Made by a program: the position numbers and the translations under genes. From positions 1-58,104 of the IMG/VR virus record IMGVR_UViG_3300045993_000204: a stretch of DNA of 58,104 nt; one strand, 5' to 3'. How positions within the stretch are numbered: the stretch's first letter is position 1; each line of letters opens with the position of its first letter. Below, one piece after another: positions 1-58,104 of the stretch. Under the pieces are notes generated by a model, which worked only from the letters and a program-made list of their open reading frames with translations, ran no database searches and had not been told where the DNA came from. Origin of the DNA: a virus.

Positions 1-127
1 ACAATGGGATGCCTCCCACGCATCTACAGAACCAGGGGTGGTATGCACGCGGTGGTCCTGTCAAGTTTGAAGACGGGGGATTTGTGGAAGAAGACGGGTT
101 AGACAACCTAGCTAGCAGGTATCCTGA
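1..127. repeat. Terminal direct repeat, left copy (assembly overlap)
   Basis: These 127 bases are identical to 57978-58104. The exact length of 127 equals a common maximum assembler k-mer, and the reading frame at the right end continues unbroken into the frame at position 1. I therefore read it as the circularisation overlap of a metagenomic or shotgun assembly, giving a unit genome of 57,977 bp. A true terminal repeat is possible but would be very short and would lie inside a gene. Confidence 0.95.
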
Positions 128-3214: not shown

Positions 3215-3395
3215 GCTTGTCCATGTAGACAAGATTACGGCGGGCTAAAATGATACGTAGGTGCTCTGCTGCATCCTTTTGTCCCTCGTCTTCTGCTTTG
3301 TTAATCATGCTTAGGAGCTCTTGCTGAGTTTTGTCCCACTGTAGACCAGGCCCAAGGATTTCGCGCAAGTACTGCCAAGTTTTATTGCTTGTCAT
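3201..3395 (-). CDS. Small hypothetical early protein (64 aa)
   Basis: The last gene of the leftward early arm: 64 residues, hydrophilic and probably all-helical. Its ATG overlaps the upstream stop as ATGA (3392-3395), so it is probably translated by coupling. Its 3' end runs into the end of the convergent late gene. A 6-bp stem with a 6-base loop (3216-3233) lies within its coding region, too weak to be called a terminator. Function unknown. Confidence 0.65.
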   Translation of the reverse strand: MTSNKTWQYLREILGPGLQWDKTQQELLSMINKAEDEGQKDAAEHLRIILARRNLVYMDKLTHR

Positions 3396-3934
3396 ACATT
3401 AGCCCGTGCAGCAGGGTAGTAAAAAATCTCCCACGGTCGGTAGTCTGTTTTATAGTCCGTATGCTTTGATACGCCGTACTTATCCCCAGCGCAGCATTCC
3501 CGGCACGTCACGCAGCGCCCGTTGCCCCGATTGAGGTCAGTGCTGTACGCAGTCAGGGGCTTGTCAACGCCGCACTTTGCGCAAGCTTGTGACGGGGTGG
3601 GCTTCCTGGCCTCGCACACCTTGCATGTGTTGTGGAATACATATTCGGGCTTGGCAAGCCTCTCGGGATTCCTGATCCTCCGGTACCCCTCTCGCAACGG
3701 TTTCTTTATTCCGCAGCAGACGCAGGGTTTGCCGTAATCTCCATTAAGGCGCATCTCGCTCTCAACAGGTTGTCCGGCTTTGATAACGGCGTCGCACGTC
3801 TTGCAAACGCTCCGGTACAGCATATCTTCGCCAGTTCGTCTTACTCGTGCAAAGCCTTTAGCTTTGGGCTTGCGTACTCCGCACACGGTGCACACTTGCC
3901 CGAGCATGTGGTAGCGGGTCATCTCGCTTGTCAT
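3392..3934 (-). CDS. Protein with three tandem zinc ribbons (180 aa)
   Basis: Three repeats of a CxxC...CxxC unit can be read: CTVCG...CKTCD, CVCCG...CKVCE and CAKCG...CVTCRECC. Each first knuckle is followed by a KP dipeptide and an aromatic/basic stretch. This looks like three zinc-binding modules arisen by internal duplication, probably contacting nucleic acid or protein. There is no HNH or other nuclease motif. I start it at 3934, where ATG overlaps the previous stop (ATGA) behind GGGAGCAAGAC. A start further upstream would overlap the neighbour more. Function unknown. Confidence 0.75.
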   Translation of the reverse strand: MTSEMTRYHMLGQVCTVCGVRKPKAKGFARVRRTGEDMLYRSVCKTCDAVIKAGQPVESEMRLNGDYGKPCVCCGIKKPLREGYRRIRNPERLAKPEYVFHNTCKVCEARKPTPSQACAKCGVDKPLTAYSTDLNRGNGRCVTCRECCAGDKYGVSKHTDYKTDYRPWEIFYYPAARANV

Positions 3935-4311
3935 GTCTTGCTCCCTGCTTCTACGCAGCACAATTGCACTGCTATAACGTGACCAATGTGGACGTGTTTT
4001 CCGGTTAATGTTTCAGATGTGGGTAGTCCAGCAGCAACTGCTTTTTCTTCGCATCTAGCGCACAGGTATTTGCCCTCTGGTGGGGCGTCTAAGAAGGTGA
4101 ATTTCTTAGTCCCGGTAAAGTTTGTCCCGCACCAGTTGAGTATCGAAATATGAGTCTTGTACTTTTGGCTAACTCTTAGTGTCGTAACACTTCGTGGCCG
4201 ATGGATAAGCACTGCCCTGCTGTTCTCGACAAACGGGCTACACGATGCCCAAGGCAATGCCCCTGGTGCCCATCGCTGCAAGTCTTTCAATGTTTGGAGT
4301 GGAAGCTTCAT
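3931..4311 (-). CDS. Small zinc-knuckle protein (126 aa)
   Basis: The C-terminal half contains CARCEEKAVAAGLPTSE followed by LTGKHVHIG, a pattern I recall from short hypothetical proteins of Burkholderiales phages. The CxxC and the His pair could bind a metal. The start (4311) overlaps the previous stop as ATGA, preceded by GGGAGCAAGAC, the same 15-base junction found in front of the next gene. The protein ends in EAGSKT, matching the AAGSKT end of its upstream neighbour. Function unknown. Confidence 0.65.
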   Translation of the reverse strand: MKLPLQTLKDLQRWAPGALPWASCSPFVENSRAVLIHRPRSVTTLRVSQKYKTHISILNWCGTNFTGTKKFTFLDAPPEGKYLCARCEEKAVAAGLPTSETLTGKHVHIGHVIAVQLCCVEAGSKT

Positions 4312-6734: not shown

Positions 6735-6958
6735 TTCAAATACTTCCTTATGTAGTTACCAACTCCGTAGGTGGCGCCATAGGTATTGCGTGTGTATTCA
6801 TCTGCTTCTGTCGCAGCTTCTCGAAGCGCAGCCTTGCGGCACGCTTCGCCGTACTTGCGCATCTGGTCGGCGGTGTAGGTGGTGCTTGTTACATGCGTAT
6901 CCGCGTCAAGCCAATCTGATACCGAATACTGGGAGGAAGGCAGTGGTGGCAGGTTCAT
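6731..6958 (-). CDS. Small hypothetical protein (75 aa)
   Basis: Starts MNLPPLPSSQYSVSDWLDAD at 6958 behind GAAGGGG, overlapping the upstream stop (ATGA). The middle section, QMRKYGEACRKAALREAA, is an amphipathic helix of a type frequent in short phage proteins. No domain recognised. Confidence 0.65.
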   Translation of the reverse strand: MNLPPLPSSQYSVSDWLDADTHVTSTTYTADQMRKYGEACRKAALREAATEADEYTRNTYGATYGVGNYIRKYLK

Positions 6959-7584
6959 AGCACCCCTTCGAAGCACTCGTGAACAAGCGCGTCAAACTCT
7001 GCGTTTGCAGCGGACTCTGCGGCGTACCATGCGGCGGACTTTTCGGCGTACTTTGCGGCGTACTCTGCGGCGTACCATGCGGCGGACCATGCGGCGGACC
7101 ATGCGGCGGACTCTGCGGCGGACCATGCAGCGGACTCTGCGTTTGCAGCGGACTCTGCGGCGTACCATGCGGCGGACTCTGCGGCGGACCATGCAGCGGA
7201 CTCTGCGGCGGACCTAATAGACTCGTCCCCAGTCATCAGCCAGTCCAGCACAATGTCAGGCAGCTCCCCGTATTCAGTAGTTTTCAGCGCCTGCATCCGT
7301 GCATGAAAACGTAGCATGACTGTCGCGTCCATCCTAGCTATGATGGTGCGCTCAGTGCAGACGATCTTGTCATCGCCTTTGATGATCTTGCCACCGCATT
7401 CAACGAGACACAGTATTGGGCCGGGTGCATGCTTAAGCGCTTGATGTGGCTTCAGGCTTGCATGTAGCCCTTGTTCGCACAGGAGCGGTTCTCCAGTGAA
7501 GATCAAAGGTACTCCGTCATCAGGCGCAGTTTTTCCGTCGCGCATTTTGTTGTTCTCGTAGAGAAAATGCCATGCTCTTGTCAT
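6955..7584 (-). CDS. DUF7666-like protein with SAAx repeat tail (209 aa)
   Basis: Begins MTRAWHFLYENNKMRDGK at 7584 (ATGA overlap, GGGGG upstream). The first 140 residues resemble the phage family I know as DUF7666 (AWHFL start, CEQGLHASLKPHQALKHAPG core, then ECGGKI). The last 70 residues are a run of four-residue units [SY]AA[EWK], encoded by 12-base-periodic DNA at about 6990-7215. The tail is probably a continuous Ala-rich helix whose length can change by replication slippage. Function unknown. Confidence 0.75.
   Translation of the reverse strand: MTRAWHFLYENNKMRDGKTAPDDGVPLIFTGEPLLCEQGLHASLKPHQALKHAPGPILCLVECGGKIIKGDDKIVCTERTIIARMDATVMLRFHARMQALKTTEYGELPDIVLDWLMTGDESIRSAAESAAWSAAESAAWYAAESAANAESAAWSAAESAAWSAAWSAAWYAAEYAAKYAEKSAAWYAAESAANAEFDALVHECFEGVL
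6990..7215. repeat. 12-bp-period coding repeat (SAAE/SAAW units)
   Basis: Low-complexity DNA built from GCGGACTCTGCG- and GCGTACCATGCG-like 12-mers, GC-richer than its surroundings. On the minus strand it encodes repeated [SY]AA[EWK] units. Larger repeated blocks (for example the SAAWYAAESAANAE phrase, present twice) show that multi-unit segments were duplicated as well. Confidence 0.9.
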
Positions 7585-7826
7585 GTCAAGTACCCCCAAG
7601 CGAAGCACAGCGCAACAAACGCGCAGAACATGCCAACTACTGCGAGGCCGTTCAGGATGCGGCCAAACAGCGCGTCGATCTCGCTCCAAGGAGCATTCCA
7701 GTCGTCATCGGGGATTTTGTAAGATTTCCAGTCAGTCATGATATTTCCTTTAACTTGTGCTGCCCACCACGTGCGGTTACGCTGTAACAGTGCTAGCTTA
7801 TCAAGAAGCAAGTTTTCATTGTCCAT
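7581..7826 (-). CDS. Small single-pass membrane protein (81 aa)
   Basis: The C-terminal 25 residues (GRILNGLAVVGMFCAFVALC and on) form one clear transmembrane helix, preceded by a soluble Trp/Asp-rich stretch. GGGAGCAC lies upstream of the ATG at 7826. An internal ATG preceded by AAAGGA (about 7739) would give a 51-residue version beginning MTDWKSYKIPDDDW; I cannot decide between them. Possibly a host membrane-targeting early protein. Confidence 0.6.
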   Translation of the reverse strand: MDNENLLLDKLALLQRNRTWWAAQVKGNIMTDWKSYKIPDDDWNAPWSEIDALFGRILNGLAVVGMFCAFVALCFAWGYLT

Positions 7827-8269: not shown

Positions 8270-8689
8270 TTATGCTTGCTGCCACACACGACCTGTAGAC
8301 TCCCAAAGAGCTTTTGCAGGAGCTTCATATTCAGTATTTTGGTAAATAATGAACTGGCAGCTAGTGTTTAGCAGAGTTTTTGTGCACCTAAGGCAGGGGG
8401 CATGTGTGGTGTAGCATGCATAAATCTGCTCAGGATCTCGGCATGTTAACAGTGCGTTCTGCTCTGCGTGGATTCCAATACACGTGTCAGATCCTTTGGG
8501 CAATGCAGCCCCTGCGCACGCTACGTCTATGCAGTGCTGAAGGCCTCTAGGCACGCCATTAAAGCCAGTGCCTGTAATCCTGTAGCGCACGTCAACTAAA
8601 ACGCAGCCTACTTGTAGTTTCCTGCACGTGCCAAGCGAGGCTAGCACTTTAGCAATTTGGAGCATTACGGTATCTTTACATGGGCGCAT
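8270..8689 (-). CDS. dCMP deaminase family protein (139 aa)
   Basis: Zinc-dependent cytidine/deoxycytidylate deaminase fold: HAE at residues 74-76 (metal ligand plus catalytic Glu), PCxxC at 98-102 (two Cys ligands), and TGFNGVPRGLQHC at 41-53, typical of dCMP deaminases. Expected reaction: dCMP to dUMP in the cytoplasm, feeding thymidylate synthesis. I use the ATG at 8689, because upstream sequence belongs to the HNH gene whose end overlaps by 14 bases. It sits beside a MazG-like protein and a thymidylate-synthase homologue, a nucleotide-pool module. Confidence 0.85.
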   Translation of the reverse strand: MRPCKDTVMLQIAKVLASLGTCRKLQVGCVLVDVRYRITGTGFNGVPRGLQHCIDVACAGAALPKGSDTCIGIHAEQNALLTCRDPEQIYACYTTHAPCLRCTKTLLNTSCQFIIYQNTEYEAPAKALWESTGRVWQQA

Positions 8690-9134
8690 AGCTTGCCCGC
8701 CTGTACAGCTTAAACGCCTTAATATTACAATTTGCGCAAAGTAATCTAAACTCTTTTGGGAATGCCATAGTGATAAGCCACTCATAAAACTGGCTGCCGC
8801 CTGTAAAACCTACTTCCCGCCGATGCGCAGCGCCATTTTGGGCAGTATGGTCAACAGTAAGCACATCTGGGTCTGCTTCGCCACAAAGTACGCAGCTGCC
8901 GCCATACACAGCAAGTACCTGGGACTTTCGCTGCAGGTTTTTAGCCCGGCTTTTTTGGTTAACTAATTCTCTATTTTCAGTACGCCACGTTTTGTAGCGT
9001 GTGCTTGCTGAACCTGTAAAACAAGCCCAGCAAAGCACCCCATAAAATCCAGAAGCTTTTCTGCGGCGAAGCTCTGGCGAAGCATCATAGTGTCTTGCGC
9101 ATTTGCATTGTGCGCATACCCGTGTTGCAGGCAT
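8676..9134 (-). CDS. HNH endonuclease with N-terminal zinc finger, inserted in the nucleotide block (152 aa)
   Basis: The N-terminus has CAQC...KASGFYGVLCWACF, a zinc-finger module shared with three other proteins here. The C-terminal domain has CVLCGEADPDVLTVDH, NG, HRREVG and LLCANCN, the treble-clef HNH pattern of free-standing homing endonucleases. The start is the ATG at 9134 with GGAG upstream (an earlier TTG is less likely). It is wedged between the MazG-like gene (1 base away) and the deaminase gene (14-base overlap), as expected of a mobile homing gene that inserts without disrupting its neighbours. Confidence 0.82.
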   Translation of the reverse strand: MPATRVCAQCKCARHYDASPELRRRKASGFYGVLCWACFTGSASTRYKTWRTENRELVNQKSRAKNLQRKSQVLAVYGGSCVLCGEADPDVLTVDHTAQNGAAHRREVGFTGGSQFYEWLITMAFPKEFRLLCANCNIKAFKLYRRASYAPM

Positions 9135-9135
9135 G

Positions 9136-9537
9136 CTACGCTCCAAGCTTCCGCTCTATTGCCCGTGCAATCTCTGCCTCAGGTCCGACCCAGCCTACAG
9201 GCTTGCAAGCATCAACTTTATTACCACGCTTTGTTTGCCCAGAAACCTTGCGCATATTGGCTGCTTGCACAGCATTCCAGATTTCATTGAAGGGGAGACC
9301 CATGCGGTACGCAGTGCCTAGCGCTACGTACACAAGATCGGCAAGGGCGTCTGCTACCCCCACAAGATCGCCTACATTGCTAGCACTGCAAAACTCATCG
9401 AGCTCTTCATGCAAGAAGCGCGCGCGTTCAATGCAGTACTCAGGCGATACCAGGTTAGGGGCTGCTTCTGCAAAGTCGGTTAAGATCTTCTCATGGAAGT
9501 CAGCCACGTCTTGCAGCATATTAGGTGTTGAAGGCAT
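9136..9537 (-). CDS. MazG-like nucleotide pyrophosphohydrolase (133 aa)
   Basis: An all-alpha NTP pyrophosphatase: EELDE at 44-48 and, 15 residues on, DLVGVADALADLVY at 57-70 supply the ExxE...ExxD-type acidic metal-binding residues, followed by MGLPFNEIWNAVQAANMRKV, typical of the MazG/PRA-PH superfamily. It probably hydrolyses a dNTP to dNMP and PPi. Next to a putative dCMP-modifying enzyme it may act as a dCTPase that removes unmodified dCTP (inference). ATG 9537 with GGAG is preferred to a TTG upstream; it overlaps the ThyA-like stop by 17 bases. Confidence 0.8.
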   Translation of the reverse strand: MPSTPNMLQDVADFHEKILTDFAEAAPNLVSPEYCIERARFLHEELDEFCSASNVGDLVGVADALADLVYVALGTAYRMGLPFNEIWNAVQAANMRKVSGQTKRGNKVDACKPVGWVGPEAEIARAIERKLGA

Positions 9538-10345
9538 AGTTAAGTACTCCAAAGTGTTGGTAATTGTTTAGCTTTAAGTCGCTTGGCATAAAGTTGTCTA
9601 TTGTGCACGCCCGCAAGCTATACGTCGGCAGCTTGTGCATAAGCCTTACGCGATGCTCTTCAAATGTGTCTATGTGGTTTTGGTAAACATGTGAATCGCC
9701 CATCATAAAGATAAGCTTGCCAGGGGTGTAGCCTGCCTCAGAACAAAGGATTAGCATCAGTACTGCGTAAAGAATAATGTCACTTGGCAACCCGAGACAA
9801 AGGTCTACGGACCGCATAGTAACAATACAGTCCAAGTGCTTATCATTACGCACATTGAACTGGGCAAGCAAGTGACAAGGTGGCAGGCACATTTCGTCAA
9901 GCTCTGCAGGATTGTAGGTAGCCAGCAAATGTCTACGGCTACTTGGATTAGTCCGGAGTCCTTGAACTAGATCAGCCATCTGGTCCAAGCAACTTTCCCA
10001 AGTGCGCCACTGTGCACCATAGACTCGCCCAACGTACTGCTTTTCAACTGGCACGTCTTTATTAGGGGCCCAGGCCGCAGCGTTGGCGTCCCAGTAGTTA
10101 CAGCCAAAATCTTTGAATGTTTTAAGGTCTGTTGCTCCCCGCAAGAACGCAGCTTCTTCCCCAAGGATGCCACCTGTAAAGATCTTCCGCTGGGTGAGAA
10201 TGGGAAAGCGCCCTTTTTCTAGGCAGTCAATTACTAGCATTGTGCCAAAGAGACTGACTGTAGGCCCTGCGCGGCTGGCACGCACTTCCCCAGTAGCGAG
10301 TACTCTGGACACAAGTGCTACGTAGTCTTTCTCAAACTTGCTCAT
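9521..10345 (-). CDS. Thymidylate-synthase-fold enzyme, probably dCMP hydroxymethylase/methylase (274 aa)
   Basis: A full-length ThyA fold: LFGTMLVID (32-40), YVGRVYGAQWRTW (104-116), SSRRHLL (135-141), catalytic Cys157 in LPPCH, RSVD (178-181), and DSHVYQNH (217-224). In thymidylate synthase the Asn of the GLPFN motif reads the uracil base. Here the motif is GLPSD (Asp189). Asp at this place is the established specificity switch of dCMP-acting relatives such as T4 dCMP hydroxymethylase. The enzyme therefore probably adds a one-carbon group to C5 of dCMP (hydroxymethyl or methyl), not to dUMP. ATGA overlap with the previous gene; GGGGA is the ribosome-binding site. Confidence 0.82.
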   Translation of the reverse strand: MSKFEKDYVALVSRVLATGEVRASRAGPTVSLFGTMLVIDCLEKGRFPILTQRKIFTGGILGEEAAFLRGATDLKTFKDFGCNYWDANAAAWAPNKDVPVEKQYVGRVYGAQWRTWESCLDQMADLVQGLRTNPSSRRHLLATYNPAELDEMCLPPCHLLAQFNVRNDKHLDCIVTMRSVDLCLGLPSDIILYAVLMLILCSEAGYTPGKLIFMMGDSHVYQNHIDTFEEHRVRLMHKLPTYSLRACTIDNFMPSDLKLNNYQHFGVLNYAFNT

Positions 10346-10620
10346 AGGTCCCCGCGCTGCTGGTCAAGATAGTCCAGGTAGAACACAGCGTAGTTCACAA
10401 GATCATACACGCTGTCCAGCATGCTATCAAAATTTGGGGTCGAACCTTTGTCGAGCAAAGACCGCATACGCAGCACTTTCATGTGAAGCATTTGCTGGTA
10501 ACTAATATCTCTGAATGGGAAATACTCGTGAAGCCCGATCGTGTTGTTATAGTCTTGCCCTTTGCGGTCTATAAGCTTGATTGCAGGCTCAATTAGACTT
10601 AGAAACTTTTGTCTATCCAT
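10342..10620 (-). CDS. Short protein resembling nucleotide-modification-associated/DUF1599 proteins (92 aa)
   Basis: Starts at the ATG at 10620, which has GGAG 7 bases before it; the ATG 12 bases earlier has none. The pattern KGQDYNN...YFPFRDISYQQMLHMKVLRM...DSVYDLVNYAVF resembles small phage proteins of the DUF1599/nucleotide-modification-associated type (by recollection). ATGA overlap with the thymidylate-synthase homologue supports a joint role in nucleotide metabolism. The exact function is unknown. Confidence 0.6.
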   Translation of the reverse strand: MDRQKFLSLIEPAIKLIDRKGQDYNNTIGLHEYFPFRDISYQQMLHMKVLRMRSLLDKGSTPNFDSMLDSVYDLVNYAVFYLDYLDQQRGDL

Positions 10621-10637
10621 TTGATTCTCCATGTGAC

Positions 10638-12841: not shown

Positions 12842-13495
12842 CTAGTACTTGCACTTTCCGCCTTTAGTTTTGGAATACGGGCACCACCGACAGCTTTGAC
12901 CTGGTGTTGGATTCCAAAGTTCCTCAGCAAAGATTGGCGCAAAATACTGCTCGTATACTTTACGCAGGGCTAGAAGTTCCTCACGAGTGTACGTCTTACT
13001 ATACGTTTGGTCTTGGTCTATAAACCACATTTCAACTGTGGTACTTACAGCTTCAGGATAAACTGCACCGCCACATACTGCATACATTTCAACCTGCTCA
13101 GTACTTGGTACCTTATACTTGCCAGTTTTCCAATCAATAACAGTAAGCTTCCCGTCTTTGAGGTAATGCCCATCAGACTTAGCACGTAGCCAGCAGTCTT
13201 TGCCAAACCAATCTGGTAGCTTTGCCCAGTTTTTATCAAAGCCCCATGCTTGCTCAGCCTTGAAGTCTTCAAGCTTAAGCGCATCAAAAGCTTCTTTCCA
13301 GTTAACAGCTTCTGGCGGTGGTTCAGCTTGCCACCCATTCATGTACGCTTCAATACCTTCATGAATTCGGCTACCCCGTTCCATCGCGCTGGATCCAGGT
13401 TGTGGAATTTTGTCTATAAACTGGTAGGCAAATTTAGCAGGGCACTCACGGTAGCAATCAAGCTTGCTAAAACCTACTGCGTCATTGAATTTCAT
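12842..13495 (-). CDS. RecB/Cas4-like PD-(D/E)XK exonuclease with Fe-S cysteines (217 aa)
   Basis: FSKLDCYRECPAKFAY (9-24), GSRIHEGIEAYM (41-52), Asp108, VIDWKTGK (119-126, Asp121 and Lys123), EQVEMYA (133-139), and C-terminal CRWCPYS...C (204-215). Together with Cys18 these cysteines form the 4Fe-4S set of Cas4/AddB-type nucleases. Probably a 5'-3' DNA exonuclease for recombination or replication. The start ATG at 13495 has AAAGGAG upstream. Confidence 0.88.
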   Translation of the reverse strand: MKFNDAVGFSKLDCYRECPAKFAYQFIDKIPQPGSSAMERGSRIHEGIEAYMNGWQAEPPPEAVNWKEAFDALKLEDFKAEQAWGFDKNWAKLPDWFGKDCWLRAKSDGHYLKDGKLTVIDWKTGKYKVPSTEQVEMYAVCGGAVYPEAVSTTVEMWFIDQDQTYSKTYTREELLALRKVYEQYFAPIFAEELWNPTPGQSCRWCPYSKTKGGKCKY

Positions 13496-13889
13496 ACTGT
13501 GCTCCTTTACGTGAATTTTCAGATCGTGTTAAAAACTGTAAGTTATTTTCAACGTGTAAACCGCTAACAAGTTTGCCTTGCAGCGGAGTTATATGATCTA
13601 CGGTTAACCCAAGCGTACTTGCTTGGGTATAAATAGCCTTGATTTTAGCCACATCGGCCCATAGTGGTACACGTTGAACTTTAAGCAAGTCTCTGCGCAC
13701 AGATTTTGCTACAGCCTTGCCCGGGTTGTTCTTGTACCAAGCTAGCGAAAGCTTATTGACCTTTTCACGTTCGCCGGGGATAGCTAGACGCTTAGCCCGG
13801 CTGCGCTGTCCTATGAACCTACTCATCAGCCGACTCTCTTCTTGGTGCTGCTCAAATGGCGTTAACTTGTCAAACGCTACTAAGATCAT
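13482..13889 (-). CDS. HNH endonuclease, free-standing homing type (135 aa)
   Basis: The C-terminal HNH is complete: LTVDHITPLQGKLVSGLHV, then ENNLQFLT and ENSRKG. It lacks the zinc-finger N-terminus of its relatives, having a Lys/Arg-rich region instead. It sits between polymerase and exonuclease genes, overlapping each by 14-20 bases, so it is a neat insertion at a gene junction. The ATG at 13889 has GGGAG upstream. Confidence 0.85.
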   Translation of the reverse strand: MILVAFDKLTPFEQHQEESRLMSRFIGQRSRAKRLAIPGEREKVNKLSLAWYKNNPGKAVAKSVRRDLLKVQRVPLWADVAKIKAIYTQASTLGLTVDHITPLQGKLVSGLHVENNLQFLTRSENSRKGAQYEIQ

Positions 13890-15752: not shown

Positions 15753-16258
15753 TCACGCAGGTACCCAAGTATTAGACTTGGCCGAATTTGCTTGCGCAGT
15801 AATAACTTGCAAATTATTATGCACGTGTAGCCCCGATACAAATTTTCCGCGTAACGGAATTATATGGTCCACTACAACATTTTCGCCTAAGCTGCGCCGG
15901 TAAGCCGCTTCCGCATACACCGCATTAATTTGCTGTGTATTCCTCCATGAAGGTGCTCTTTGAAGTTCAGCGCACCAACGTTCCATTGCGTAAGCTACTG
16001 TTTTTCCAGGATGCGCCAAATGCCATGCTTTTGTAAGTTCACGTTGGCGCGTGGGGTTTGCAGTTCGCCAAGCAGTACCATGCAATTTAATACGTTCTGG
16101 ATTTGCTTGGCGATACTGAGCTATCCGAGCTTTGTGCAGCTCAGTATTTTCTGCGTAGTGCTTTGCTTTAGCTGCCAATGCGCGCTCTTTGTTAGCCGCG
16201 TACCATTTTTTGCAGTCGCTAGCCTTCGCAAACGGTCTTCTTCAAGCGTTTTAGTCAT
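15753..16258 (-). pseudogene. HNH homing endonuclease with a frameshift at an A6 tract
   Basis: The C-terminal HNH is intact (NVVVDHIIPLRGKFVSGLHV, NNLQVIT). The natural start is the ATG at 16258 (MTKTLEED...), overlapping the previous gene's stop, but that frame dies after about 40 codons. The nuclease frame is open back past 16178 with no ATG. The two frames join perfectly (LATAKKWYAANK) if one A is added at the A6 tract 16206-16211, or if ribosomes slip -1 at the in-phase A_AAA_AAT there. So it is either a one-base loss (real or sequencing) or a frameshift-expressed gene. A TTG at 16178 would give 141 residues. Confidence 0.75.
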
Positions 16259-17582: not shown

Positions 17583-18038
17583 TTAAAATGCCCAAGGTGG
17601 CACACTATTTGCCCCACTTGTGGCAACTTTACTCCAGCGGTACCAAGTAGGTTTCATGGCAATTTTCTCAGCAATGCGACTACGAATGATTGCCAAGGCT
17701 TCAGGCGTAGGGGTGTAATCCTGGTTTAGAATATCCAAGGCATGCCACACGCGGTCGGGGTCAAGCGGCGAATGGATGTCGAAGTCAATGTCTCGTTTGA
17801 GTAGCTCCCGCTGTAGCTGGTTGTAACGCTTGCGAAGGTAGAAACCTTTGTCATAGAAGAACATGACATGACCCGTATTGAGCGTGAAGGCAGGCGGTAT
17901 AGCTTTGAGCACGCCTGCGAGACCTCGCGCTTTGAGGCTACGGCTTAGTGCTTTGGGGACCATCTTGATTTCGCGAAACTCAGCAAACAAATGCTGGTCG
18001 GCAAGCTCAGATGGTGGGACGAGGTTAATACGTGTCAT
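17583..18038 (-). CDS. denV: Pyrimidine-dimer DNA glycosylase, T4 endonuclease V type (151 aa)
   Basis: Close in layout to T4 DenV: MTRINLVPPSELADQHLFAE at the N-terminus (Thr2 supplies the catalytic amine; Arg3; Glu23 conserved in FREIK), GHVMFFYDKGFYLRKRY in the middle, and IAEKIAMKPTWYRW near the C-terminus. It cleaves the glycosyl bond at UV-induced cyclobutane dimers and nicks the strand, starting excision repair of phage or host DNA. The ATG at 18038 is fixed by the N-terminal catalytic Thr and by the start context GAAAGAACCTATG. It has its own TATAAT 26 bases upstream. Confidence 0.93.
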   Translation of the reverse strand: MTRINLVPPSELADQHLFAEFREIKMVPKALSRSLKARGLAGVLKAIPPAFTLNTGHVMFFYDKGFYLRKRYNQLQRELLKRDIDFDIHSPLDPDRVWHALDILNQDYTPTPEALAIIRSRIAEKIAMKPTWYRWSKVATSGANSVPPWAF

Positions 18039-18063
18039 AGGTTCTTTCAGTAGTGCAACTTGT

Positions 18064-18069
18064 ATTATA
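18064..18069 (-). promoter_or_regulatory. -10 element (TATAAT) for the DenV-type gene
   Basis: TATAAT on the minus strand within GTAGTATAATACAAG. The predicted leader is only about 19 bases long and, unlike the other early promoters, has no hairpin. Confidence 0.55.
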
Positions 18070-18153
18070 CTACAAACTTGCATGTACAGGTAAACAAATG
18101 CGCGCTTCTTTGCCATTTGCCGAAAGGACTACGAACTGGCGCTCGAGGGTCAT
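18070..18153 (-). CDS. Possible 27-aa small protein
   Basis: ATG at 18153 to TAG at 18070, MTLERQFVVLSANGKEARIC and seven more residues, filling the gap between the genes at 18175 and 17583. The ribosome-binding site is weak. Listed because no other frame explains the interval and neighbouring genes are packed in the same way. Confidence 0.4.
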   Translation of the reverse strand: MTLERQFVVLSANGKEARICLPVHASL

Positions 18154-21941: not shown

Positions 21942-22511
21942 CTACGTCTCCAAAAGTCTATTGCCTTTACTACTATTTTCTGTTTGAGTAAGCAGCTGTA
22001 AGTTGTTTGCAACATGAAGCCCAGATACTAAAGCTCCGCGCAAAGGATAAATGTGATCTACAGTAAGCCCCTTACTTGCAGCTTTTGTGTATACTTGCTT
22101 AATTGCTGCCAAGTCTGCCCATGGTGGCACACGCTGGATTTTAGCTATAGCGTACCTCGTACAATTAGCATTAGACTTTCCGCGATTCGCTTTTTGCCAA
22201 GCCCTTACTGCCGCGTTAAGCTTTTCACGCCCTTCAGGCGTTGCTCGGGTTTTTGCCTTTGCAGCTCGTTGCACAGCCCGTATTTTGTCTAAGCCTTCTG
22301 GAGTGGTTCTATTTTTTGCTTGGGTCGCTCTATTTGCCGCATTTGCTTTTGCGCGACCTTCTGGAGTTGCTTTACGAGCAGCATTGCGCTTGGCATCACT
22401 AAGCAAGTAACAGTCCCAGCAGACTGCCCCTAAAAAACCAGACGCTTTCGAGCAAGACTTAGCTGTAAGCTCATAGAACTTTTCTTGGTTACAAATTTTA
22501 CAATATCGCAT
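21942..22511 (-). CDS. HNH homing endonuclease with zinc finger and TPEG repeats (189 aa)
   Basis: Three parts: N-terminal zinc finger CKICNQE...KASGFLGAVCWDC (4-33); three helical repeats beginning TPEG[RL]xK at about 50-115, probably DNA-contacting linkers; and a C-terminal HNH, LTVDHIYPLRGALVSGLHVA, NNLQLLT, ENSSKGN. Intact, and the best model for the decayed copy at 18237-18689. It lies directly upstream of the primase-helicase gene, separated by a terminator. A probable own promoter (TATAGT) precedes the ATG. Confidence 0.88.
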   Translation of the reverse strand: MRYCKICNQEKFYELTAKSCSKASGFLGAVCWDCYLLSDAKRNAARKATPEGRAKANAANRATQAKNRTTPEGLDKIRAVQRAAKAKTRATPEGREKLNAAVRAWQKANRGKSNANCTRYAIAKIQRVPPWADLAAIKQVYTKAASKGLTVDHIYPLRGALVSGLHVANNLQLLTQTENSSKGNRLLET

Positions 22512-33111: not shown

Positions 33112-34098
33112 ATGGCTGATACCTTGAAAGAAGATGACGAGAAGTTGTCACGGGACGAGTATGTTGTTGTTGAAGACCCAAAGAAACTGAGCGCGGTAGA
33201 CGATGACGACGACGACATCGACCCAGATAATCCAGATGGGGAGACTGGTGATGCCCGTATTGCGCATACTTCAGATGAAGATCGTGATGCCATCCGTGAG
33301 CGCCGCAGAGCTGAGAAGCTTGAGCGTAAGCAGCGTCGCGATGTTGCCATTGTACGTGATAAGACTGAGCTTGCTTTTTTAACCAAGCGTAATGATGAGC
33401 TTGAGCGCAGGCTGCTAGCGCAAGAACAACGGGCGCATCAGAGCGACGTCAACAGCCTAGCTTATCAAGCTCAGCAAGCACAGGCACAAGCTGAGCAGGC
33501 CGAGCGTGTCATTGCTAAGGCAGTTGAGGCGGGCAATGGCGATGACGTAGCCCAGGCACTCCGGTACCGTGACCAGGCAATGCAGCGGGCTCAGCAATTG
33601 CTTACTGCCCAGCAACAAACAGCTGCAAGTCCGCCTGTCCAGCAAGTGCCTGCTACAGCTGCTAAAGTGGTTGAGCTTGCCAACAAGTTCATTGATGATA
33701 ATAAAGATTGGTACGATAGGCAAGGTCGGAACGAAGACTCAGCTATTGTATTAGCAATTGACGCAGCACTTGTGCGTGATGGGTACGCCCCACATACAGA
33801 GGAATACTGGGCAGAGCTTAATAAACGTGTGGCGCGGCGCCTGCCTGAGCACTTCACAAAAACAACGCGGCGTGATGACCATGGCGAAGAACCACCTGAG
33901 CGTGTGTCGCGCGGCGGTCCAAATATGGGATCAGGTAAAGAGCATGCACCAGTAAGCACTCGCAAGGAAGTTTATATTAGCCCAGAGCGCAAATCCGCTT
34001 TGATGGAGGCAGGCGTTTGGGACGATCCGGTGCTGAGAAACAAGTACGTAAAAAGGTATATACAGTACGATAAAGATGCTAGGGAGAACCGGTCGTGA
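33112..34098 (+). CDS. Head scaffolding protein (328 aa)
   Basis: Very acidic N-terminus with an Asp run, then a long coiled coil (about 60-170: LTKRNDELERRLLAQEQRAH, then Gln/Ala-rich repeats), and a compact C-terminal half with FIDDNKDWYDRQGRNEDS. The composition and location directly before the capsid block fit a scaffold that guides prohead assembly. The stop overlaps the GTG of the inserted GIY-YIG gene. Confidence 0.78.
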   Translation: MADTLKEDDEKLSRDEYVVVEDPKKLSAVDDDDDDIDPDNPDGETGDARIAHTSDEDRDAIRERRRAEKLERKQRRDVAIVRDKTELAFLTKRNDELERRLLAQEQRAHQSDVNSLAYQAQQAQAQAEQAERVIAKAVEAGNGDDVAQALRYRDQAMQRAQQLLTAQQQTAASPPVQQVPATAAKVVELANKFIDDNKDWYDRQGRNEDSAIVLAIDAALVRDGYAPHTEEYWAELNKRVARRLPEHFTKTTRRDDHGEEPPERVSRGGPNMGSGKEHAPVSTRKEVYISPERKSALMEAGVWDDPVLRNKYVKRYIQYDKDARENRS

Positions 34099-34829
34099 CT
34101 TTTTACACCTATATCCACACACGTGCGTCCGACAATAAGCCTTTCTATGTCGGAAAAGGCCGTGGTAAACGGGCGTACTCGGCAGCTGGTCGAAACACGC
34201 ATTGGCACCGCGTAGTAGCTAAGCATGGGTTAAAGGTCGACATTGCTTCGCGCTGGCCAACCGAAGTTGAAGCTTTTGAGCATGAAAAGTTTTTGATATT
34301 ATGCTTAAAAGATATGAAGATGCTGCTAGTTAACCAAACTAACGGCGGCGAAGGCCGCGCAGGGTGGGTGCCTGACGAGTTGTTTAGAAACATGGTTTCG
34401 CGTGTTCATGCTGGTAAGGCCATATCTGATGAGACCAAAGCCAAAATGAGCGCGTCTGGCCTACTTGCTAATGCAGCCATAGAGGTCCGAGCGCGCAAAC
34501 GCGCAAGCTGGACACCAGAACGGCGCGCACTTAACGCTGCTAGGGGCAGAGAGCTTATTCACCATGCCATTCAAGCCAATGTTGGTGCGCCCAGCCACAT
34601 GCTTGGTAAAAAACAATCTGAAGAGGCTAAAGCCAAAATCAGCGCTGCGGTTTCCGGTGAAAACAATCCCATGTTTGGTAAAACTTTTTCGCACACCGAC
34701 GAGGCAAAAGCAAAGATAGCTAAGGCCAGCAAAAACAGAATCATCACTGACAAGGCTAGAGCCAGTATCAGTGCATCGGCCAAAGCCGCTTGGGCCCGGC
34801 GTAAAGCTGCACAAATAAATCGCGCGTGA
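34095..34829 (+). CDS. GIY-YIG homing endonuclease with NUMOD3 repeats (244 aa)
   Basis: N-terminal GIY-YIG-type domain: YTYIHTRASDNKPFYVGKGR (4-23), RVVAKHG, and catalytic-region EVEAFEHEKFLI (Glu62). Central and C-terminal NUMOD3-like units: SDETKAKMSAS, SEEAKAKISAAVSGENNPMF, GKTFS...EAKAKIAKAS. Starts at a GTG overlapping the scaffold stop (GTGA), GGAG 8 bases upstream. A free-standing homing gene in the late operon between scaffold and capsid genes. Confidence 0.9.
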   Translation: MTFYTYIHTRASDNKPFYVGKGRGKRAYSAAGRNTHWHRVVAKHGLKVDIASRWPTEVEAFEHEKFLILCLKDMKMLLVNQTNGGEGRAGWVPDELFRNMVSRVHAGKAISDETKAKMSASGLLANAAIEVRARKRASWTPERRALNAARGRELIHHAIQANVGAPSHMLGKKQSEEAKAKISAAVSGENNPMFGKTFSHTDEAKAKIAKASKNRIITDKARASISASAKAAWARRKAAQINRA

Positions 34830-57481: not shown

Positions 57482-58104
57482 ATGGGATACGAACTCAACA
57501 AACTGATGGCCCAGTACGGGGTAAGCTCTGCCACCCTGCCTGTGGAAAGCCTGGTGGCCCCGGCGGACAAGCCTGCCTATGACGCCTACAAGCAGGAGTA
57601 CATGAACAGGATGCAAGACACCCCGATGTATGCAAATCCTAATGACAGGATGATTCAGCCCGGCCCGCAGACCCCGCAAACCCCCAATGCTAGGCAAGAG
57701 GTAATGCAGCCCGGGGGCATGGGCATAGACGCCTACAACAAGAAACTGCTAGACTGGACGCGCGAAAACCCAAATGCTACTAATGAGCAGGTGGTGTCGG
57801 GCCAGGCAAAGTACGGCATAACAGGCAGGGACTTGTACGGTGCTACAGGTAACTACTGGGGTAATACGCTGCATGCGCCCGGCCCGCAAGGTCCGCAAGT
57901 ACCCCAAGTTGTACCTCCAAAAGTAGCTGAGCCTGTAGTTGCAGAACCTGGGGCACAACCAGTTACAGACGGCCCCTACAATGGGATGCCTCCCACGCAT
58001 CTACAGAACCAGGGGTGGTATGCACGCGGTGGTCCTGTCAAGTTTGAAGACGGGGGATTTGTGGAAGAAGACGGGTTAGACAACCTAGCTAGCAGGTATC
58101 CTGA
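57482..58104 (+). CDS. Internal virion protein, N-terminal part (continues at position 1)
   Basis: ATG at 57482 with TAGGAG upstream; open to the window end and continuing in the same frame at positions 1-1283, giving 592 residues. N-terminal 160 residues are Pro/Asn/Gln-rich and include AQYGVSSATLPVESLVAPAD and a Pro/Val-rich segment before YARGGPVK. Listed in two parts only because of the linear window. Confidence 0.78.
   Translation, partial: MGYELNKLMAQYGVSSATLPVESLVAPADKPAYDAYKQEYMNRMQDTPMYANPNDRMIQPGPQTPQTPNARQEVMQPGGMGIDAYNKKLLDWTRENPNATNEQVVSGQAKYGITGRDLYGATGNYWGNTLHAPGPQGPQVPQVVPPKVAEPVVAEPGAQPVTDGPYNGMPPTHLQNQGWYARGGPVKFEDGGFVEEDGLDNLASRYP
57978..58104. repeat. Terminal direct repeat, right copy
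   Basis: Identical to 1-127; see the left copy. Confidence 0.95.

Follow-up and report, generated by a model that had tools for sequence, protein, structure and literature searches.

Phages in which all cytosine is present as 5-methylcytosine have, to our knowledge, been described only around Xp12. In this Xanthomonas phage cytosine is replaced even though deamination exists (PMC9206674, PMC7653180), and the DNA of its close relative, the Stenotrophomonas phage AXL1 (Bosavirus), is resistant to enzymes whose sites contain C (PMC9206674). An Asp at position 177 of thymidylate synthase (TS) shifts specificity from dUMP to dCMP in the E. coli, L. casei, and T4 enzymes (PMC8670742, PMC6400193). 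N177D TS forms 5-methyl-dCMP (PMC8670742), and the title of Liu and Santi 1992, as given in that paper, names L. casei TS N229D as a dCMP methylase. The signature proposed for dCMP hydroxymethylases places Asp or Glu at the third position ahead of the catalytic Cys (Cys-3) and Ser or Thr two residues before Tyr, and the D145N form of T4 gp42 is inactive (PMC6400193). The link between the Asn-to-Asp exchange and modified cytosine is already published (MetaGPA 2021, PMC8670742): environmental contigs carrying modified cytosine were enriched in Asp-177 synthases, the TS genes on these contigs co-occurred with PF01503 and PF00383, and His147 tended to be changed. Here we analyze a 58,104-bp IMG/VR virus record (the window). 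Our main reading, to which as a whole we give a probability of roughly 0.6, is that its TS-family gene encodes a dCMP methylase and that the phage DNA carries 5-methylcytosine as in Xp12.

A TS-family gene and its neighbors

The first and last 127 bases of the window (1-127 and 57978-58104) are identical, and the contig is therefore probably a whole phage genome, assembled as a circle, of about 57,977 bp. The nearest cultured terminase is that of Roseobacter phage CRP-902 (46%), and the nearest cultured polymerase is that of PW916/AXL3 (37%). The cassette lies on the minus strand in the order DUF1599, synthase, MazG, HNH endonuclease, and dCMP deaminase:

10342-10632, minus strand: DUF1599 / Nucleotide modification associated domain 1 protein, 96 residues (PF07659, 28.1 bits, cut-off 25)
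9521-10345, minus strand: TS-family enzyme, predicted dCMP 5-methyltransferase, 274 residues, ATG start (PF00303, E 2.6e-68)
9779-9781, minus strand: codon GAC of Asp189 in the synthase, equivalent to E. coli Asn177, T4 gp42 Asp179, and L. casei Asn229
9136-9552, minus strand: MazG-type nucleotide pyrophosphohydrolase, candidate dCTPase (PF01503, E 3.9e-16)
8676-9146, minus strand: HNH / endonuclease VII-like gene (phrog_2255 HNH endonuclease, E 1.4e-10)
8270-8785, minus strand: dCMP deaminase (PF00383, E 6.2e-14; phrog_174 dCMP deaminase)

The DUF1599 stop and the synthase start overlap as ATGA, and the MazG gene overlaps the 3' end of the synthase gene; both overlaps are of the kind expected under co-translation. 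An earlier note on this DNA had placed a MazG-like pyrophosphatase and a nucleotide-modification-associated protein beside the synthase, which the PF01503 and DUF1599 matches bear out, but it had missed the dCMP deaminase. The deaminase has intact HAE and PCxxC zinc motifs and likely starts at the ATG at 8689 (MRPCK, as in relatives). Because the deaminase of relatives directly follows MazG, the intervening HNH gene is probably a mobile gene, a homing-endonuclease insertion that stands outside the pathway.

In our comparison set AXL1 stands in for Xp12 (MT664984), which is not part of that set, nor are Bosa (LR743532) and FMYAK-P1 (OK275492). Compared with AXL1, Mallos, and PaMx28, the window carries the Xp12-type gene set. 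AXL1, like the window, has an Asp-type synthase, a dCMP deaminase, and MazG-type and DUF1599 domains side by side, but the last two are fused in AXL1 gp64, whereas they are separate proteins in the window (MazG shares 42% identity with the N-terminal part of gp64, and DUF1599 shares 47% with its C-terminal part). The AXL1 synthase is 25% identical to that of the window and lies on another branch of the tree. The model of the window DUF1599 protein is a small four-helix protein (mean pLDDT 85). Its best match among solved folds was AF_0060 (2p06; TM 0.65, E 0.6, a weak match), which we take to belong with the all-alpha NTP pyrophosphatases; PRA-PH proteins scored lower, and the DUF1599 profile had no match among PDB sequences. 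The fold matches offer a lead toward an all-alpha NTP pyrophosphatase.

Active site of the synthase and its predicted product

The PF00303 match spans residues 6-267 of a complete protein, and the gene was the single match to the TS query in the phage. The GLPSD motif begins at residue 185 and places Asp at residue 189; RSVD lies at 178 and DSHVY at 217. In the alignment with E. coli ThyA, Cys157 corresponds to Cys146, Arg137/138 to Arg126/127, Asp189 to Asn177, and His219/Tyr221 to His207/Tyr209, and the full-length fold of the superfamily is present together with the catalytic Cys, Glu58, the Arg pair, Arg166/Asp169, and His207/Tyr209 (E. coli numbering). Residue checks and alignment thus confirmed the claim of the earlier note that Asp replaces Asn at the base-reading site while Cys157, the Arg pair, RSVD, and DSHVY are intact. 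A structural model had been proposed there as a check; the AlphaFold model has the TS fold (mean pLDDT 96.8; TM up to 0.92 versus solved thymidylate synthases), and its best 50 PDB fold matches are all thymidylate synthases.

The earlier note had drawn an analogy to T4 dCMP hydroxymethylase and had left both 5-hydroxymethylcytosine and 5-methylcytosine as products. T4 gp42 belongs to the same superfamily and shares with the window synthase the catalytic Cys and Glu and the Asp at the base-reading site (Asp179 in gp42). The window synthase differs from gp42 in lacking the water-activating Asp at Cys-3, where it has Leu154, and the Ser-x-Tyr element, where it has Arg107-Val108-Tyr109. It also keeps the closing tail of TS, with 53 residues after the active-site Tyr (Tyr221) compared to 28 in gp42 and 55 in E. 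coli ThyA. The site and the C-terminal tail are TS-like, as in the engineered dCMP methylases L. casei N229D and E. coli N177D, which likewise combine the Asn-to-Asp exchange at the base-reading position with Leu at Cys-3, His147, and a retained tail; in contrast to these engineered enzymes, the switch in the window arose naturally, is shared by a whole phage clade, and is tied to a cassette. Because the signature sites follow the TS pattern and synthases engineered from Asn to Asp act as dCMP methylases, a methylase is favored. Of the two products offered, 5-methylcytosine is the better supported, and the T4 analogy is not well supported, since the hydroxymethylase signature is absent and the tail missing in gp42 is present here.

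A dCMP hydroxymethylase like gp42, giving phage DNA with 5-hydroxymethylcytosine, would use the same Asp switch, it would release tetrahydrofolate and so dispense with a dihydrofolate reductase (DHFR), of which none was found, and DUF1599 adjoins a T4-type dCMP hydroxymethylase in Serratia phage Muldoon. Against it stand the residues and tail described above, the inactivity of gp42 D145N, the exclusively TS matches among the best 50 folds, and a tree (below) that puts the synthase with TS-like enzymes. We consider T4-like hydroxymethylation in this phage unlikely. Two observations count against the predicted methylase. The synthase retains His147, a position that tends to be changed in MetaGPA modified contigs. 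With Asn at Cys-3 and Pro147, the synthases of the AXL1/Xp12 group depart from the TS pattern, and the product call therefore depends on the lack of a signature that derives largely from T4-type enzymes.

Distribution of the Asp switch and of the cassette

The window synthase has the Asp-for-Asn exchange at 177 that defines the dCMP-specific branch. Asp occupies this position in every member of its clade (IMG/VR contigs sharing the gene arrangement), and Asn was found in all 80 TS homologues from cellular genomes. Because the residue is fixed in its own clade while 80/80 cellular ThyA have Asn, we conclude from these sequences that Asp189 is more than chance. In a set of non-redundant IMG/VR relatives, 36 with Asp and 36 with Asn, the residue sorts by clade. 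About three Asn/Asp changes are required on the tree, a number not to be over-read because sampling was query-led, with bootstrap unsettled and long branches meeting. We used the tree just to separate the window synthase from T4 gp42 and from the AXL1 group. The synthase fell among TS-like enzymes and far from gp42, where branches are long.

By synthase, the nearest cultured relatives are Kafunavirus KF-1 and Vibrio phage VPMS1 (36-38%). Their synthases and that of Pelagibacter phage Kolga are, like the window's, Asp-type with Leu and His at 143/147, but they have Asp, not Val, before the catalytic Tyr; in KF-1 and VPMS1 a different NTP-PPase-like protein adjoins the synthase. We found no literature report on the base chemistry of KF-1, VPMS1, or Kolga. 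A second large Asp-type clade has Tyr in place of His after the catalytic Cys, a VAV/VAI-like C-terminus, and no MazG or DUF1599 relatives (L030, L046, L048, L053, L056, L060, L063, L065, L071, L073-L077, L080, L081, L083, L086, and others); it is possibly another group of cytosine-modifying phages. The gene of Pseudoxanthomonas phage PW916 (L100, 3280-4098) is annotated as deoxyuridylate hydroxymethyltransferase, yet it encodes Asp at the base-reading site, which makes the annotation doubtful.

MazG or DUF1599 relatives were present at 13 of the 36 Asp-type IMG/VR loci, at none of the 36 Asn-type loci, and at none of the 80 cellular TS loci. An IMG/VR search with the DUF1599 profile alone returned 17 loci (L109-L125) besides L003, and in each of the 17 a synthase stood beside DUF1599 and was Asp-type. 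Seven of these loci are contigs already found with the synthase and 10 are new (L111-L114, L117, L119, L121-L124), which makes the test partly independent. Among cultured phages, DUF1599 relatives occurred in 41 of 50,697 records, mostly Xp12-kind phages of Xanthomonas, Stenotrophomonas, and Pseudomonas, and DUF1599 adjoined an Asp-type synthase in all six phages inspected (AXL1, V45iii, Mallos, PaMx28, Kolga, and Muldoon). DUF1599 tracks Asp-type synthases. MazG alone was rejected as a specific marker; in cultured phages its relatives also lie beside ThyX (RcRudolph) and next to a thymidylate kinase in Eula, where no synthase occurs within 4 kb.

Three lines of evidence, the Asp at 177, the conserved cassette, and the matching genes of the Xp12 group, give good support to the earlier proposal of an enzyme that uses dCMP and modifies cytosine. 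The predicted substrate is very probably dCMP, and modification of cytosine is likely.

Proposed pathway

We propose that the enzyme is a dCMP 5-methyltransferase that would have evolved from thymidylate synthase through the Asn-to-Asp switch. Cys157 would attack C6 of dCMP, Asp189 would recognize and protonate the cytosine, and methylenetetrahydrofolate would give the one-carbon unit and the hydride reducing it to methyl, as in TS. The 5-methyl-dCMP would be phosphorylated by host kinases, and the resulting nucleotide incorporated in place of cytosine. The MazG-type protein, which we infer to be a dCTPase, and/or the DUF1599 protein would lower dCTP, and the deaminase may also convert dCMP or 5-methyl-dCMP to dUMP or dTMP, as reported for Xp12. 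The modified cytosine would presumably protect the phage DNA from restriction.

Searches of the window with positive controls found no DNA C5-methyltransferase and no carbamoyltransferase, and no glycosyltransferase was seen among the window genes scanned; these results count for the methylase reading. The same kind of search found no DHFR and no thymidylate-kinase-type nucleotide kinase, and both results count against it: methylation would convert tetrahydrofolate to dihydrofolate, and phages of the AXL1 group, AXL1 itself included, encode DHFR. A TET/JBP search gave no match even in control genomes and says nothing on the window. C-containing six-base palindromes are weakly avoided (O/E 0.86 in the window, 0.55 in T7, 0.92 in T4, and 0.90 in AXL1), values compatible with modified DNA on which, given one unmodified control and differing hosts, we place no weight.

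The same dCMP methylase might instead serve mainly to make dTMP, its product being deaminated and dUMP bypassed, so that virion DNA would contain hardly any modified cytosine or none. The deaminase gene that follows in nearly all cassettes would suit such a route, dCMP deaminases act on both dCMP and 5-methyl-dCMP (PMC12088426), and titles of reports on Xp12 infection mention "A new thymidylate biosynthesis" as well as a "5-methyl-dCTP deaminase". Conservation of the MazG and DUF1599 genes, however, suggests removal of a nucleotide such as dCTP, needless for a pure dTMP route, and the cytosine of Xp12 is replaced despite deamination; we judge this route quite improbable as the main outcome. 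It is highly improbable that the enzyme is a normal thymidylate synthase that uses dUMP despite having Asp at 177: the remaining site is that of TS, together with the deaminase it would complete the normal dCMP-dUMP-dTMP route, and no second thymidylate synthase is present in the phage (one TS-query match, and no ThyX in a window search with positive controls), but Asp at 177 moves characterized enzymes from dUMP to dCMP and is invariant in the clade and absent from the 80 cellular ThyA.

Returning to the 5-methylcytosine reading, we hold a wider joint proposal only tentatively, and as a whole it is rather doubtful: DUF1599 would be a dedicated MazG-fold pyrophosphatase that removes dCTP and marks fully cytosine-replaced genomes, it would form with the Asp-type synthase a portable 5-methylcytosine cassette outside the Xp12 group, and the deaminase would give dTMP from 5-methyl-dCMP without dUMP.

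Implications and other genome features

If the 5-methylcytosine reading is true, a separate environmental phage lineage replaces cytosine with 5-methylcytosine by means of a synthase that is near-ordinary but for one residue, and this synthase is a naturally occurring form of the classic engineered dCMP methylases. Protection through modified cytosine is already known, and here a separate phage lineage would be using it. The tight link of DUF1599 to Asp-type synthases provides a marker by which cytosine-modified phages could be recognized simply from their genomes, and it gives a testable role to a protein family of unknown function.

HNH / endonuclease VII-like genes are spread across the replication arm (3392-3961, 8676-9146, 13482-13889, 15753-16178, and 21942-22511, minus strand), and a homing endonuclease match (phrog_314) lies amid structural genes at 34095-34829 on the plus strand. 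The gene at 6955-7689 (minus strand) matches DUF7666 and has a repetitive tail rich in Ala, Glu, Ser, and Trp (ESAAWSAAES...), under which the DNA repeats yield long spurious ORFs on the opposite strand. A pyrimidine dimer DNA glycosylase (PF03013, T4 DenV-like) is encoded at 17583-18116 (minus strand), and Vibrio phage VPMS1, which has an Asp-type synthase, likewise encodes such a glycosylase.
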